A stretch of 64,000 nucleotides of DNA from NCBI GenBank assembly GCA_000403335.2, contig KE159617.1, positions 911,757 to 975,756 on the forward strand. The letters are read 5' to 3'. Made by a program: the position numbers and the translations under genes. A model generated the notes under the pieces. It was given only the letters and a program-made list of their open reading frames with translations. It searched no databases and had not been told where the DNA came from. The stretch comes from Lachnospiraceae bacterium MD335 (lineage in GTDB: Bacteria; Bacillota; Clostridia; Lachnospirales; Lachnospiraceae). Of the stretch, positions 3,503 through 57,939 are shown in pieces (the stretch's first letter is position 1; each line of letters begins with the position of its first letter).

Positions 3503-3617
3503 ATAACTTGGTAGTTTATTGAAAAAAGCTTTGGTGCTTTGCTACAAAGGATAAAGACAGTAAAGTTGTGTTTGGACCACAAGTTCGCAGACTGTGAAAG
3601 GAACATAGGTTATTGAA

Positions 3618-8828: not shown

Positions 8829-8839
8829 TGGAGGTGACG

Positions 8840-8895
8840 AAGATTGAAAATTAAAATTTTCAATCTTACAAGTTTGGGCTTGATGCCCAAACTTG
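8840..8895 (+). repeat. family A double-hairpin element, copy 1 (carA-carB)
   Basis: Hairpin I: AAGATTGAAAATT (8840-8852) pairs perfectly with 8855-8867 around a tiny loop. Hairpin II: CAAGTTTGGGC (8869-8879) pairs perfectly with 8885-8895, loop TTGAT. It starts 11 bases after the carA stop and ends just before the carB ribosome binding site. Same architecture as copies at 23107, 37589 and 57858. No T-run follows, so it is not a standard terminator. Confidence 0.75.
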
Positions 8896-8924
8896 CAGGC
8901 TAAGAAAGGAGTATGGATATAATA

Positions 8925-17083: not shown

Positions 17084-20000
17084 TTATTTATTCTTTTTAT
17101 CCTTTATTTCACTGTGCAGCTGCTGTAAGGATTTGACATCGGCATCACCGTTTTTCTGCGCGTATAAAATACCCTTCACGGTTGCTCTCGCCGCTGCAAC
17201 TGTTGTAACATAAGGCACCCTTGCTTTAATGGCAGCCTTTCTTAAATAGCTGTCATCATGCACGCTGTCTTTTCCGACAGGAGAGTTGACAATCAAATCA
17301 ATATCTTCGTTCGTAATCAAATCAAGAATATTCGGTCTGCCCTCATAGAGCTTGTTGACCTTTTTTGCCGGAATACCTGCCTCCGTAATTGTGTCAAAGG
17401 TACTGCCTGTGGCAAGAATCTGAAATCCTGCTTCATCGAACAGTTTTGCAACCTCGACAGCCTCTGGTTTATCCTTGCGGTTTACGGAAATCAGCACGGT
17501 ACCGCTAAGCGGAAGCGTTGTCTGCGTCGCCTCCTGCGCTTTAAAGAACGCTTCTCCATAGTAGGGAGATAAGCCCAAAACTTCACCTGTAGAACGCATT
17601 TCCGGTCCGAGTACAGGATCGACTTCTGGGAACATATTGAACGGAAATACCGCTTCCTTTACGCCGTAGTAAGGAATGTCCTTTTCCTTGAGTGCAGATA
17701 CCGGAGACGGCCGTCCTGTAATTTCGGAAGTGATAATGTCCGTTGCAAGCGGTACCATGCGGATGTTGCATACCTTCGATACAAGCGGTACGGTCCGCGA
17801 TGCGCGCGGATTTGCCTCCAATACATAAACCTTGCCATTTTCGATTGCATACTGCATGTTCATCAGTCCTTTAACATGCATTTCCTCCGCGATTTTTTTC
17901 GTATAGTCCCTGATGGTGGCAACGTTTTCCTCAGAGATATGCACGGAAGGAATGATACATGCCGAGTCGCCGGAATGCACGCCCGCAAGCTCAATATGCT
18001 CCATCACTGCAGGAACGAACGCATGTATGCCGTCGCTGATAGCATCCGCTTCGCATTCCAATGCGTGATTTAAGAAACGGTCAATCAAAATGGGCCTGTC
18101 CGGTGTAACGCCTACGGCTGCCTTCATATATCCAGCCATGCTTTCATCGTCGTACACAACCTCCATGCCGCGTCCGCCAAGCACATACGAAGGACGAACC
18201 ATAACGGGATAACCGATTTTGGCTGCGATTGCAAGCGCCTCCTCAACGGTCGTTGCCATGCCGGACTCCGGCATCGGGATTTCAAGCTTATCCATCATTG
18301 CGCGGAACTGGTCGCGGTCCTCCGCAAGATCAATGACAGCAGGAGAAGTGCCGAGAATTTTTACGCCGTTTTTCTCCAGCTCATTTGCAAGGTTGAGCGG
18401 TGTCTGACCGCCAAACTGTGCAATCACTCCGAGCGGTTTTTCCTTATGGTAAATGCTGAGCACGTCCTCAAGCGTCAGCGGCTCAAAGTAAAGCTTATCT
18501 GAGGTGTCATAATCCGTCGAAACCGTTTCGGGATTGCAGTTTACGATAATGGTTTCAAAACCAAGCTGCTTTAAGGCAAGCGATGCGTGGACGCAGCAGT
18601 AGTCAAATTCAATACCCTGTCCGATGCGGTTTGGTCCGCCGCCCAAAATCATAATCTTTGGCTTATCCGTGTTGACAGGATTTTTATCCTTTGCATTGTA
18701 GGTAGAGTAGTAGTATGCGCTGTCAGGCGTGCCGCTTACATGAACGCCCTCCCAAGCTTCTTCCACGCCGAGCGCAATGCGCCTGTTTCGAATATCGGCT
18801 TCGGAAATATCCAAAATCTGACTTAAATATTTATCGGAAAATCCGTTTTTCTTAGCGGAAATAAGTGCGTCATCTGACGGAAGCGAGCCTTTGGATTTTG
18901 CAAGCGCTTCCTCCTCCTCAACGAGCTCCTTCATCTGCTCCACAAAGTAGTGCTTTACTTTGGTAATCTCAAAGATTTCATCTACTGTTGCGCCCTTGCG
19001 CAGCGCCTCATACATAATGAAGTGGCGGTCGCTCGATGGATTGGCAAGCATCCGCAGCAGCTCTTCCTTTGGCTGCCTGTTGTAATCCTTTGCGTATCCC
19101 AGTCCGTAACGCCCTGTTTCCAAACTGCGAATCGCTTTTTGGAACGCTTCTTTGTAGGTCTTTCCGATACTCATAACTTCGCCTACGGCACGCATCTGCG
19201 TACCAAGCTTATCCTCAACGCCTTTGAATTTTTCAAACGCCCAGCGCGCAAATTTGATTACGACATAATCGCCGTCCGGAACATATTTGTCCAACGTGCC
19301 GTACTTTCCGCATTCAATGTCTTTTAAGGTAAGACCTGCCGCAAGCATTGCGGAAACAAGCGCAATCGGAAAGCCGGTTGCTTTGGACGCAAGCGCGGAA
19401 GAGCGGGAAGTTCGCGGGTTAATTTCGATTACGACAATCCGGTCGGAAACGGGATCGTGAGCAAATTGAACGTTTGTTCCGCCGATAACCTGTACGGAAT
19501 CGACAATGCGGTACGCCTGATCCTGCAGCCGTTTCTGCAAGTCTTCCGATATGGTAAGCATCGGTGCGGAGCAGAACGAGTCGCCGGTGTGGACGCCGAG
19601 CGGATCAATATTTTCGATAAAGCAGACGGTAATCATGTTTCCTTCTGCGTCGCGTACAACCTCAAGCTCAAGCTCCTCCCAGCCGAGGATGGATTCCTCG
19701 ACCAATACCTGCCCTACAAGACTTGCCTGCAGACCGCGCGTACAGACCGTTTTTAATTCTTCTTTATTATAAACAAGTCCGCCGCCTGCGCCGCCCATTG
19801 TGTAGGCGGGACGCAAAACCACAGGATAGCCAAGCTTGTCTGCAATCGCAAGCGCTTCATCAACACTGTAGGAAACCTCGCTTCGTGCCATCTCAATTCC
19901 GATTGCGTCCATTGATTTCTTAAACTCAATGCGGTCTTCGCCGCGCTCAATCGCATCTACCTGCACGCCGATTACCTTGACATTGTATTTATCAAGAACC

Positions 20001-20317
20001 CCTTCCTTTGCGAGCTCCGCACACAAGTTTAAACCGGACTGTCCGCCGAGATTTGGCAGCAGCGCGTCGGGACGCTCCTTAGCGATAATCTGCTCCAAAC
20101 GTTTTACGTTTAACGGTTCTATGTAAGTTACATCAGCGATTTCGGGATCGGTCATAATGGTTGCAGGATTGGAGTTGACAAGTACAATCTCATATCCAAG
20201 TTTGCGAAGCGCTTTGCACGCCTGCGTTCCGGAATAGTCAAACTCACATGCCTGTCCAATGATAATCGGACCGGAACCGATGATAAGCACTTTGTTAATA
20301 TCTTCTCTTTTTGGCAT
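17084..20317 (-). CDS. carB: second carbamoyl-phosphate synthase large subunit (orphan)
   Basis: Full-length, 1077-residue CarB with both ATP-grasp halves (KVLIIGSGPIIIGQACEFDY at the start and IMILGGGPNRIGQGIEFDY near residue 555) and a C-terminal MGS-like domain (about 940-1077). It is clearly diverged from the carA-linked copy at 8925-12122, with different wording in nearly every block, so it is an old paralogue and not a recent duplication. It stands alone, with no amidotransferase gene beside it. It may borrow CarA, pair with a distant small subunit, or use ammonia. Start ATG at 20317 has AGGAGG-like sequence upstream (minus strand GGAGGTTATT). Confidence 0.94.
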   Translation of the reverse strand: MPKREDINKVLIIGSGPIIIGQACEFDYSGTQACKALRKLGYEIVLVNSNPATIMTDPEIADVTYIEPLNVKRLEQIIAKERPDALLPNLGGQSGLNLCAELAKEGVLDKYNVKVIGVQVDAIERGEDRIEFKKSMDAIGIEMARSEVSYSVDEALAIADKLGYPVVLRPAYTMGGAGGGLVYNKEELKTVCTRGLQASLVGQVLVEESILGWEELELEVVRDAEGNMITVCFIENIDPLGVHTGDSFCSAPMLTISEDLQKRLQDQAYRIVDSVQVIGGTNVQFAHDPVSDRIVVIEINPRTSRSSALASKATGFPIALVSAMLAAGLTLKDIECGKYGTLDKYVPDGDYVVIKFARWAFEKFKGVEDKLGTQMRAVGEVMSIGKTYKEAFQKAIRSLETGRYGLGYAKDYNRQPKEELLRMLANPSSDRHFIMYEALRKGATVDEIFEITKVKHYFVEQMKELVEEEEALAKSKGSLPSDDALISAKKNGFSDKYLSQILDISEADIRNRRIALGVEEAWEGVHVSGTPDSAYYYSTYNAKDKNPVNTDKPKIMILGGGPNRIGQGIEFDYCCVHASLALKQLGFETIIVNCNPETVSTDYDTSDKLYFEPLTLEDVLSIYHKEKPLGVIAQFGGQTPLNLANELEKNGVKILGTSPAVIDLAEDRDQFRAMMDKLEIPMPESGMATTVEEALAIAAKIGYPVMVRPSYVLGGRGMEVVYDDESMAGYMKAAVGVTPDRPILIDRFLNHALECEADAISDGIHAFVPAVMEHIELAGVHSGDSACIIPSVHISEENVATIRDYTKKIAEEMHVKGLMNMQYAIENGKVYVLEANPRASRTVPLVSKVCNIRMVPLATDIITSEITGRPSPVSALKEKDIPYYGVKEAVFPFNMFPEVDPVLGPEMRSTGEVLGLSPYYGEAFFKAQEATQTTLPLSGTVLISVNRKDKPEAVEVAKLFDEAGFQILATGSTFDTITEAGIPAKKVNKLYEGRPNILDLITNEDIDLIVNSPVGKDSVHDDSYLRKAAIKARVPYVTTVAAARATVKGILYAQKNGDADVKSLQQLHSEIKDKKNK

Positions 20318-23035: not shown

Positions 23036-23106
23036 AATGCAAGAAAACGTGCATGAATTTCTTTACATTTTATAGGAGTATGTGTATAATTATGGTAAGC
23101 TGAAAA

Positions 23107-23153
23107 GATTGAAAATGAATTTTCAATCACGAGATTTGCGTTGCTGCAAACTC
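23107..23153 (+). repeat. family A double-hairpin element, copy 2 (upstream of glgA)
   Basis: Hairpin I: GATTGAAAAT (23107-23116) with ATTTTCAATC (23119-23128). Hairpin II: GAG(A)TTTGC (23131-23139) with GCAAACTC (23146-23153), one bulged A. It is followed by CGGTTATG, which copy 3 also carries. A further short inverted repeat, CGCAT/ATGCG, lies at 23188-23202. The element sits between the Spo0A-like gene and glgA, in the same orientation as transcription. Confidence 0.65.
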
Positions 23154-23267
23154 GGTTATGCGCAAGGGACAGTGCATAAATGAATACGCATTCCTTATGC
23201 GATTAGGGTGTCAGATCTTTTGCATCACAGTCAGCATAGATAAATTGTGAGAAAGGGATTGGATAAG

Positions 23268-36496: not shown

Positions 36497-37588
36497 ATGT
36501 CAGAAGAAAATAAGGAAATACTCAAAATAAACAATCTTGATATTACCTTCCGCACGACGGCAGGTCCGGTGCATGCCATAAGAGGCGTGGACATTGATCT
36601 GTTTAAAGGAGAGACGGTGGCGATTGTGGGCGAGTCGGGTTCGGGAAAGTCCGTAACCATGAAAGCCGCGATGGGCATTCTTGCATCCAATGCCACTGTT
36701 ACAAACGGGACAATCGAATTTTCGTATCATCATGCGGACGGCAGTCCGGAAACCGTCGATATTCTTACGAAGAACAAAAAGTGGATTCGCAGGCATATTA
36801 ACGGAAAGCGGATTGCAATGGTATTTCAGGATCCCATGACCAGCCTTGATCCGACCATGACGATTGGAAAGCAGATTATGGAGGGTATGATTTGGCATTT
36901 CAAGACGCCGAAAAAGGAGGCGTGGGACAAAGCCGTTTCCCTGTTAAAAGAGGTTGGCATTGAGGATGCCGAGAAACGTATGAAAAATTATCCGCATCAG
37001 CTTTCGGGCGGTATGCGCCAAAGAGTGGTAATTGCGATTGCGTTGGCATGCAATCCGGATTTGCTGATTTGCGACGAGCCGACGACGGCGCTTGACGTGA
37101 CCATTCAGGCAAAGATTATCGAGTTAATCAGACGGGTGCAGAAGGAGCGCGGCATTTCCGTTATTTATATCACGCATGATCTTGGCGTTGTCGCCAAGGT
37201 AGCGGATTATGTAAATGTTATGTATGCGGGGAAAATTGTGGAGAAGGGAAAAATCGACGAGATTTTTTATGACCCGAAACATCCGTATACATGGGGACTT
37301 TTGTCGGCGATGCCGGATCTTGACACGGATGACGAGCGGCTTTATACCATTCCCGGTTCTCCGCCAAATCTTCTGCATGAAAAGGCGGGGGATGCGTTTG
37401 CGCCACGAAACCGCTATGCGCTGGAGATTGATGATAAGGCGGACCCTCCGATGTTTCAGGTAACCGACACGCACTATGCGGCGACATGGCTCCTTGATCC
37501 GAGAGCGCCGAAGGTGGAGATGCCCAAAGAGCTTGCGGACAGGCTTAAGAGAATGAAAAAGGAGGCATCGGATTATGGCAGAGAATAA
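36497..37588 (+). CDS. oppD: peptide ABC transporter ATP-binding protein (OppD type)
   Basis: ATPase subunit with Walker [11 protein letters not shown], signature [15 protein letters not shown], Walker [15 protein letters not shown] and the C-terminal oligopeptide/dipeptide transporter extension ([14 protein letters not shown]). This extension in OppD-type proteins often carries an Fe-S cluster, but the usual four-Cys motif is not present here. Starts 28 bases after oppC. A family A double hairpin begins directly after its stop. Confidence 0.94.
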
Positions 37589-37640
37589 TGTGAAAAATTC
37601 ATTTTTCACATGGCAAATTTGTGCAGAGACACAAATTCGC
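37589..37640 (+). repeat. family A double-hairpin element, copy 3 (oppD-oppF)
   Basis: Hairpin I: TGTGAAAAAT (37589-37598) pairs perfectly with ATTTTTCACA (37601-37610), loop TC. Hairpin II: AATTTGTG (37616-37623) pairs with CACAAATT (37630-37637). Stem I differs from the other copies on both arms yet stays fully paired. It lies inside the opp operon and is followed by CGGTTATG, as in copy 2. Confidence 0.75.
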
Positions 37641-37666
37641 GGTTATGATAAGAACGGAGGGATAAA

Positions 37667-56999: not shown

Positions 57000-57851
57000 A
57001 TGAAATTTACGAAAATGCATGGATGCGGAAATGATTATGTGTATGTAAACGGCATGCGTGAGCAGATAGCGTCTGATAAAAAGCCGGAGATGGTAAGAAA
57101 ACTGAGTGACAGGCATTTCGGTATCGGCGCAGACGGCGTAATCTTTATTAATCAGGGAAAACAGGCAATGTTCGAGATGGAAATGTACAATGCGGACGGC
57201 AGCCGTGCACAGATGTGCGGAAACGGTATCCGCTGCGTGGCAAAATATGTCTACGATTATGGATTGACGGATCAGACAAACATTACCATAGAAAGTTTTG
57301 GAAGTGTGAAATATTTGGAGCTTAGCGTGGGAGCGGATAATAAGGTGGATATGGTGTGCGTCAATATGGGTGCGCCGATATTGGAGGCGTCAAAAGTGCC
57401 GGTGCATTCAGTGAAGTCCCGGGTTATTGGCGAAGAAATTTCTGTTTTGGGAACAACATATAAAATGACTTGTGTTTCAATGGGGAATCCGCATGCCGTC
57501 GTATTTTTGAATGAAATAGAGGATATACGCAGATTTGATTTGGAGTCTGTGGGACCGTCTTTTGAAAATCATGATTGCTTTCCGGAGCGGACAAACACAG
57601 AGTTTGTGCATGTCATAGACCGGCAGAATGTGCAGATGCGCGTGTGGGAACGCGGTACGGGCGAAACGCTTGCGTGCGGCACGGGATGTTGTGCTACGGC
57701 AGTTGCGGGCGTGCTTGGCGGTCTTACCGACACACGCGTCAATGTGCACGTGCTTGGCGGCGTGATTGCGTGTGAGTGGGATCAGGAAAACAATGTAGTC
57801 TATATGACAGGACCGGCTGTGACAGTGTTTGACGGCGAAGCGGAACTGTAG
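57000..57851 (+). CDS. dapF: diaminopimelate epimerase
   Basis: 283 residues. Interconverts LL- and meso-diaminopimelate for lysine and peptidoglycan synthesis. The two catalytic cysteines lie in AQMCGNGIRCVAKY and LACGTGCCATAVAG; the start is MKFTKMHGCGNDYVYVNG. Starts 33 bases after the ANTAR gene. A family A double hairpin begins 7 bases after its stop. Confidence 0.96.
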   Translation: MKFTKMHGCGNDYVYVNGMREQIASDKKPEMVRKLSDRHFGIGADGVIFINQGKQAMFEMEMYNADGSRAQMCGNGIRCVAKYVYDYGLTDQTNITIESFGSVKYLELSVGADNKVDMVCVNMGAPILEASKVPVHSVKSRVIGEEISVLGTTYKMTCVSMGNPHAVVFLNEIEDIRRFDLESVGPSFENHDCFPERTNTEFVHVIDRQNVQMRVWERGTGETLACGTGCCATAVAGVLGGLTDTRVNVHVLGGVIACEWDQENNVVYMTGPAVTVFDGEAEL

Positions 57852-57857
57852 GAGGAA

Positions 57858-57913
57858 GGTTGAAGAATCCTTGATTCTTCAACCGGCAAATTTGTGCTGA
57901 CGCCCAAATTCGC
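57858..57913 (+). repeat. family A double-hairpin element, copy 4 (dapF-MBOAT)
   Basis: Hairpin I: GGTTGAAGAATC (57858-57869) pairs perfectly with GATTCTTCAACC (57873-57884). Hairpin II: AATTTGTGC (57889-57897) pairs with 57902-57910 with one mismatch, followed by CGCAGTG. The GGCAAATTTGTGC stretch is identical to copy 3, while stem I differs on both arms. Confidence 0.75.
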
Positions 57914-57939
57914 AGTGTGTTGGCAACATGGAGGTTGAG

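Follow-up and report, generated by a model that had tools for sequence, protein, structure and literature searches.

About 65 copies of a hairpin-rich sequence were found in the 4.96-Mb genome of Lachnospiraceae bacterium MD335 (G000), and these are probably small non-autonomous mobile elements, each of which would be a self-contained ribosome-binding cassette. The copies located in the window, i.e., the whole 64-kb stretch of DNA that was analysed, are listed in Table 1. Three of them are strong members. In each of these, hairpin I is long, AT-rich and almost without a loop, hairpin II is of the type CAARTTTGKGC...GCNCAAAYTYGC, and the tail ends in a Shine-Dalgarno (SD) sequence, which lies a few bases ahead of the start codon of the next gene. 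The carB gene was identified by profile. The preliminary description of this DNA had proposed that four sites of the window follow one design of two hairpins. Two hairpins were indeed recognised at all four sites by direct reading and by folding, and the sites at 8841, 37587 and 57857 fit the common design well, although the site at 23106 is only a divergent relative. The element was also found to be longer than the two hairpins, as it extends over about 80 nt through the conserved SD-bearing tail to near the start codon.

Table 1. Members and relatives of the element family in the window, with the neighbouring translation signals
Feature	Position	Strand	Remarks
Element 1	8841..8923	+	before carB; R1 52.3 bits, R2 E 7.1e-4
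Element 1, hairpin I	8841-8868		
Element 1, hairpin II	8869-8895		
Element 1, own SD (GGAG) in the tail	8908-8911		
Older SD (GGAGG) upstream of element 1	8830-8834		
carB start codon (ATG) behind element 1	8925		first in-frame ATG of the ORF finder: 8913
Element 2	37587..37666	+	oppD/oppF junction; R1 69.1 bits, R2 E 1.9e-6
Element 2, hairpins	37587-37640		
Element 2, SD (GGAG) in the tail	37656-37659		
oppF start codon (ATG)	37667		
Element 3	57857..57939	+	between dapF and a DltB-like gene; R1 80.1 bits, R2 E 2.4e-4
Element 3, hairpins	57857-57913		
Element 3, SD (GGAGG) in the tail	57930-57934		
Older SD (GGAGG) upstream of element 3	57851-57855		
Start codon (ATG) behind element 3	57940		first in-frame ATG of the ORF finder: 57928
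Divergent relative	23106..23159	+	presumed glgA leader; R1 21.4 bits, E 0.026; R2 E 0.0058
Remnant	3563..3617	+	hairpin II and type-1 tail GACTGTGAAAGGAACATAGGTTATTGAA abutting ATG 3618; stem I missing

Two covariance models were used. R1 is based on an alignment (A2) of 29 rows, of which 20 were kept, all of them copies from G000; the sites at 37589 and 57858 of the window belong to this training set. Misalignment of stem I was the reason for discarding most of the other nine rows; one lay on the wrong strand, and the base was longer in one. R2 was built from 12 loci of other genera only, and the four sites are its top four matches in the window. Among the Rfam families, only a tRNA matched the window at the gathering threshold.

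The divergent relative at 23106 has a typical hairpin I, a diverged hairpin II, and no SD or start codon directly behind it. A promoter-like sequence, TTTACA-17-TATAAT, lies upstream at 23062-23090, although a mean of 1.3 such sites was obtained when the region was shuffled. Because of the promoter-like sequence in front and the lack of an SD and a start right behind, this site does not look operon-internal. The order from 23062 to 23260 is the promoter-like sequence, the divergent element, a leader of about 90 nt, and glgA. In the related genome G006 (locus L337), nearly the same element sequence is present in similar surroundings, and the region could be a regulatory leader in its own right. 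The weak fifth candidate that had been suspected around 3560-3596 is a related remnant; hairpin II and the tail are there, but stem I is absent. It precedes a Na/Pi-cotransporter gene. The R1 score for 3513-3592 is only 15.6 bits (E 0.4), and the remnant was recognised by eye through its tail, which resembles the tails of many intact copies. Elsewhere in the window, a minus-strand ORF of 1077 aa (17084-20317) resembles part of carB at the DNA level (about 70% identity, with the match at about 20028-20281) and probably encodes a second carbamoyl-phosphate synthase large subunit.

Are these sequences common in this genome and in other Lachnospiraceae? The 11-mer CAAATTTGTGC occurs 40 times genome-wide, against four occurrences of its reversed control. 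A search with R1 gave 64 matches at E<=0.01 among the best 134 candidates, in agreement with the idea of a dispersed family in the preliminary description. At E<=1, there were 106 matches among the best 150 of 4636 candidates, many of the weak ones being the palindromic reverse of strong ones. The set used below consists of 74 own matches, from which a weak non-overlapping match at C13:474449 (24.8 bits) was excluded; several of the lowest-ranked of the 74 may be chance matches, and 55 copies have at least 40 bits. Across the 24 genomes of the genus that were scanned, the number of R1 matches ranges from 0 to 64, and matches occur in 22 of the 23 other species. In the order-level scan, R1 matched in 17 and R2 in 25 of 392 genomes, the own genome included, with copy numbers that are lower bounds (the best 13 candidates per genome for R1 and 11 for R2). 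In the phylum-level scan, R2 matched in one of 398 genomes, which was the own genome (the best 11 candidates each, with few genomes of the family among the listed rows), so that an absence outside the order-level relatives is weakly indicated. The named relatives are mostly uncultured Lachnospiraceae known from metagenome-assembled genomes. The elements are about 80 nt long in the genus, and a long form of about 135-165 nt was found in other genera. One exact pattern for hairpin II gave no match in viral contigs, and no phage carriage was seen in this way.

The position of the elements relative to genes is strongly biased. An SD and a start codon follow hairpin II at a distance of 18-27 nt in 54 of the 74 own matches and of 22-25 nt in 42 of the 74, while none were found in six. 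Among the copies with at least 40 bits, a start within 45 nt was found in the sense direction in 45 of 55 and in the antisense direction in none of the 55. With the same reach, the value for random places at the same loci was 21% when the sense strand was counted and 12% when both strands were. The short forms of the relatives behave similarly (33/44 sense, 1/44 antisense, duplicates removed), as do the long forms with a reach of 110 nt (37/40 sense and 3/40 antisense, duplicates removed, against 26% for random places). Orientation relative to genes is thus clearly biased, and none of the outcomes that would have spoken against the preliminary description (few matches in the genome, no covariation, random orientation) was obtained. 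The left flank before stem I reads GGAGGAT/A, with the slash at the junction, and it is SD-like in 37 of 55 copies as compared with 19% of random places. From their N-termini, read by eye, I take the genes behind various copies to be rplA, rpmA, dnaK, cmk, hisS, glmS, recF, parA, addA, and atpC.

The upstream side shows a related pattern. In 29 of the 74 own matches, an upstream ORF of at least 80 codons has its stop codon inside the first 18 nt of the element, and in 55 of the 74, a same-strand ORF of this minimal length ends between 18 nt inside and 63 nt before the element. This closeness to ORF ends, together with the long and nearly perfect helix of stem I, would suit an mRNA processing or stability element inside operons, such as an RNase III site that separates neighbouring messages; processing was also among the readings offered in the preliminary description. 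The SD carried by the element, its place after an older SD, and the empty sites described below are left unexplained by such a function, which makes it a very unlikely one. An intrinsic terminator, which would have a GC-rich stem with a U run behind it, was also considered and does not fit. Stem I is AT-rich and is followed by hairpin II, after which, in the 74 rows inspected by eye, there is mostly GCAG and no T run.

If the elements are mobile, occupied and empty versions of the same site should be found, as in the case of MITEs. Such pairs were observed at carB, on the dapF side, at recF, and at C15:285092. The carA-carB junction reads GGAGGTGACGAAG-element-AATG in the own genome, and the element-free junction GGAGGTGACGAAGGAATG was found at locus L140 and in the genomes G006 and G011. 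A single nucleotide stands in place of 8843-8923 in the latter two genomes. The CarA protein at L140 is 98% identical to the own one, and the carAB genes of G006 are 95-98% identical to the own ones. On the dapF side, G006 has a clean empty site, CTGTAGGAGGTTGAGATG, and C15:285092 likewise has an empty counterpart there. The oppF frame of G006 overlaps the end of oppD and no element is present. At recF, the situation is reversed; the site is empty in G000, and G006 has a clean 77-nt insert, GAGGA/TATAGAATG, with no target duplication. The suggestion of a BOX-like mobile repeat in the preliminary description is thus backed by the empty sites in close relatives.

I searched G006 with the joined flanks of 53 own sites, of which 27 gave a gap, 12 were contiguous, 12 had no match, and two matched on one side. 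After alignment of 24 loci, C13:395505 was moved from contiguous to occupied, and a remnant was recognised at C1:815828. Of the 39 comparable sites, 28 are occupied in both genomes, 10 are element-free in G006, and one holds the remnant; the gap sites that were not aligned were called occupied from the gap length alone (45-138 nt). Several of the junctions between the two genomes are not clean. At the own carB site, 1-4 nt of the empty version are missing, and the whole spacer is replaced at C1:152384. In the reverse comparison, 11 elements of G006 were sought in G000 and nine were aligned. The parA site is a nearly clean empty site in G000, the addA site has a scar from a deletion between TTGAAA repeats, and the L344 site has kept hairpin II and lost stem I. 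At three further sites, the element is absent from G000 and the flanks have diverged. The sites without the hairpins at addA, L344, and C1:815828 are losses that left the tail or another part. GGAGG or AAAG occurs on both sides of the element at two sites and may belong to the element itself. Apart from stem I, no inverted termini were seen by eye.

Some loci have more than one copy. At L114 (G022:C23:265356 and 265437), the second copy starts right after the SD of the first copy, behind GGAGGATT. This nested copy leans to targeting, rather than selection, as the cause of the one-sided orientation. L369 and L245 likewise have two or three elements per locus.

The arms of stem I had been noted to change together, which was taken as a sign of selection on RNA structure. 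In the 20 seed copies of R1, which were picked for good alignment, stem I is 97.0% paired, with double changes in 7 of its 12 pairs. Its covariation score of 0.182 compares with 0.045 for the shuffles (none of 500 reached the observed value) and at most 0.033 for the slid controls, which supports both points. In 53 of the 55 own copies with at least 40 bits, 504 of 530 cells of stem I are Watson-Crick pairs and 9 of 530 are G-T pairs. No double changes were found in stem II among the 20 seed copies.

Selection on structure is also apparent in other genera, where a pseudoknot was found. In 12 long forms, three of which are from another family, stem I is 99.4%, stem II 90.2%, and the pseudoknot 91.4% paired, with double changes in 6 of the 8 pseudoknot pairs. 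The partners are the loop of hairpin II (e.g., CCGGAGCG) and the strand immediately 5' of the SD (CGCTCCGG-AATGGAGG), and the pairing of the long form spans about 130 alignment columns. When each loop was matched to the tails of other elements, none of 1000 shuffles reached the observed pairing in other genera (all 15 of 15 loci). In the short forms of the relatives (25 of 32 usable, mostly from the genus and at least five from other genera), 40 of 1000 shuffles reached it. In the own genome (62 of 74 copies usable), the pairing was not above that of shuffled pairs, with 156 of 1000 reaching it. The copies not used were those in which hairpin II or the SD could not be placed, and in some of the own copies hairpin II was assigned to a wrong place in this computation. 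Since the own-genome pairing is no better than shuffled, the pseudoknot is claimed for the long form alone, for which these comparisons make it firm; in most short forms, it appears to have degenerated or been lost. A long form with the pseudoknot is present in the own genome as well, at least at C1:1194350.

In 51 copies and with pseudoknots ignored, the unpaired fraction of the SD is 0.61 in the native elements and 0.52 in shuffled ones (Wilcoxon p 1.9e-5). The same computation for 34 sites showed no significant gain in openness from the old SD to the new one (p 0.14).

Riboswitches of the preQ1-II type have a leader pseudoknot next to the SD. The elements resemble such leaders in that a loop pairs with the strand just 5' of the SD, but they differ in that they are not tied to one pathway and in that close relatives have gained or lost the site. 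A conserved translational control element was also considered, whose pseudoknot or stem I would be bound by a protein or a ligand so that many operon genes are co-regulated at the ribosome-binding site. Two findings that speak for it are the clustering of the SD and the start codon at certain distances and the covarying pseudoknot just 5' of the SD in other genera. The 28 sites occupied in both G000 and G006 would fit a kept regulatory function too, and G012 has retained an rplA-like site in which the two arms of stem I are both altered. On the other hand, no obvious pathway is common to the downstream genes (carB and, by eye, rplA, rpmA, dnaK, cmk, hisS, glmS, and others), 10 of the 39 comparable sites are element-free in a relative whose carAB genes are nearly identical, and the number of matches per genome varies from none to 64 within the genus. 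Control of this kind is an unlikely explanation.

BOX, RUP, and ERIC repeats and other MITEs are short, non-coding, hairpin-rich sequences that occur in many copies, are patchy between close strains, and contain no gene. The elements are like them in all these respects, having no gene of their own, but they differ in the single orientation relative to genes, in the place between the SD and the start codon, in the SD of their own, and in the long-range covarying pseudoknot of the long form. As compared with MITEs, terminal repeats or a target duplication were not established. The elements also resemble the REP palindromes associated with RAYT transposases, as dispersed hairpins with possible single-strand mobility. 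However, the elements lie before genes, while an abstract on REP sequences places the repeats 'downstream from coding regions' (PMC3733652).

It was considered whether the elements are of the REP or IS200/IS605 kind, with a Y1 (HUH) tyrosine transposase carrying them from place to place as single-stranded DNA. Hairpins lie near the ends, the insertion at recF is clean and without target duplication, and G000 has one full Y1_Tnp gene. The rarity of G-T pairs in stem I would be expected if the DNA strands matter. Nevertheless, a search for the Y1_Tnp family found no member in G006, which has 49 R1 matches (76% complete), or in G312, which has at least 11 R2 matches (99% complete), and seven Y1_Tnp loci have no R1 or R2 match. 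A Y1 transposase partner is thus not supported, and no mobilising enzyme was found in this search, which covered Y1_Tnp as the single transposase family. GTAG/CTAC occurs near an end of only 2 of 55 own copies, as does CGTC/GACG (2/55), and the pairing that covaries over about 130 alignment columns also speaks against this route. These findings make it quite unlikely.

The Rfam motif TD-2 (RF03162, clan CL00124), in which TD stands for Treponema denticola, resembles the opposite strand of the elements in its succession of hairpins, among them the UGAAAA stem of hairpin I. It differs in that Rfam models the opposite strand and files it as an sRNA gene. No literature describing TD-2 was found. 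In G000, the TD-2 model gave 20 matches at E<=1 among the best 150 of 444 candidates, and 19 of them are on the elements, all 19 on the opposite strand. The best score was 40.9 bits (L313), which is below the gathering cut-off of 48.7. Alignments over the full length (positions 1-98, opposite strand) were obtained at L226 (E 0.0098), L233 (0.012), and L040 (0.15), the first hairpin being broken in the last. In G312, the two loci compared, of seven TD-2 matches, overlap R2 matches on the same strand but out of register, and neither R1 nor R2 matches either of the two compared loci in G030. Sub-threshold TD-2 matches were also obtained in one of 14 control genomes. From these results, a distant relationship, not membership, is possible. 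The weak matches in G030 (L316 and L320) are on other hairpin-rich sequence, GGAGTTTGGCG..CGCCAAACTC, which does not belong to the elements.

An sRNA from the opposite strand, as filed for TD-2, might be the functional product, given that nearly all TD-2 matches in G000 coincide with the elements in a similar hairpin order. Yet all the scores are under the gathering cut-off, the loci in G312 and G030 do not repeat the pattern, and the gene position and the SD are features of the sense strand. The wobble counts, 26 G-T versus 16 A-C outside one conserved position, are not decisive for the strand. Such an sRNA is extremely unlikely to be what these elements are for.

The place before the start codon is also occupied by other hairpins. 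A second, unrelated double-hairpin family was found there in carA-carB spacers (L171, L174, L190, L197, and L212), and also at L345 (G000:C1:10918) and L348 (G000:C1:664894). Its design is mostly a long TAAGACTGCAAA..CGCAGTCTAAG-like hairpin followed by GAAGAATGC..GCATTCTTC or a variant and then by an SD. At two sites, one of them atpC-like, G000 has the second family where G006 has the first. In L005, L015, and L033 (G000:C1:642407, C12:40751, and C15:129337), stem I is replaced by a longer hairpin of the TCTAAG..CTGCA type, which is like that of the second family, and hairpin II of the first family comes next, which gives the elements a modular look. At L225 (997-1569), a T-box-like leader, a Clostridiales-1-like match, and an element are arranged in a row before a gene that was named by eye and is presumably pheS-like; the T-box and Clostridiales-1 matches are below the cut-offs and lie beside the element, not on it. 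L242 (G343:C25) has four near-identical tandem CAAGTTTGTG..CACAAACTTG hairpin units with TTTTTCAAATAT before one gene.

A mobile ribosome-binding cassette would account for the features shown by comparison of the sequences, namely the own SD, the orientation, the place, the insertion, and the structure. The element inserts in the sense orientation into the translation start region of a host gene, typically between the host SD and its start codon. The upstream gene is offered a stop codon by the 5' end of the element in many copies, and the 3' end brings a new SD at a proper distance from the start codon. The two or three hairpins, which in the long form are held together by the pseudoknot that abuts the new SD, would form a closed fold that leaves the SD free, and the translation of the downstream gene would be kept. 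Because translation would be kept, essential genes inside operons could bear the elements. Presumably, the fold protects translation and the movement depends on an enzyme acting in trans, perhaps on hairpins. The preliminary description had suggested a mobile repeat and selection on RNA structure, both of which are supported, but had missed the position rule, the own SD, and the pseudoknot.

As a more tentative proposal, for which the odds seem somewhat less than even, the family may represent a new class of element that recognises the SD stretch GGAGGAT, inserts behind it in one orientation, supplies a ribosome-binding site presented by a pseudoknot, and then becomes the target for the next copy. 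The spacer between the SD and the start codon would be a general landing place, also for at least one unrelated double-hairpin family. A literature search on intergenic hairpin repeats and on mobile elements that sit between an SD and a start codon yielded nothing describing these elements in the portions consulted, which include those of PMC8632094, PMC6429828, PMC7160235, and PMC3733652.

The location of the family is of interest for the biology of bacterial repeats, which are usually thought to settle at harmless places. The place of this family is the most sensitive stretch of essential genes, 10-20 bases long, for which it seemingly pays with a portable ribosome-binding site. If this is true, the elements would be natural, context-independent modules of translation start and a new source of differences in expression among strains, and they would perhaps give a biological setting to the unexplained Rfam motif TD-2. 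The copies with an empty sister site would be natural pairs for the effect of a structured leader on translation.
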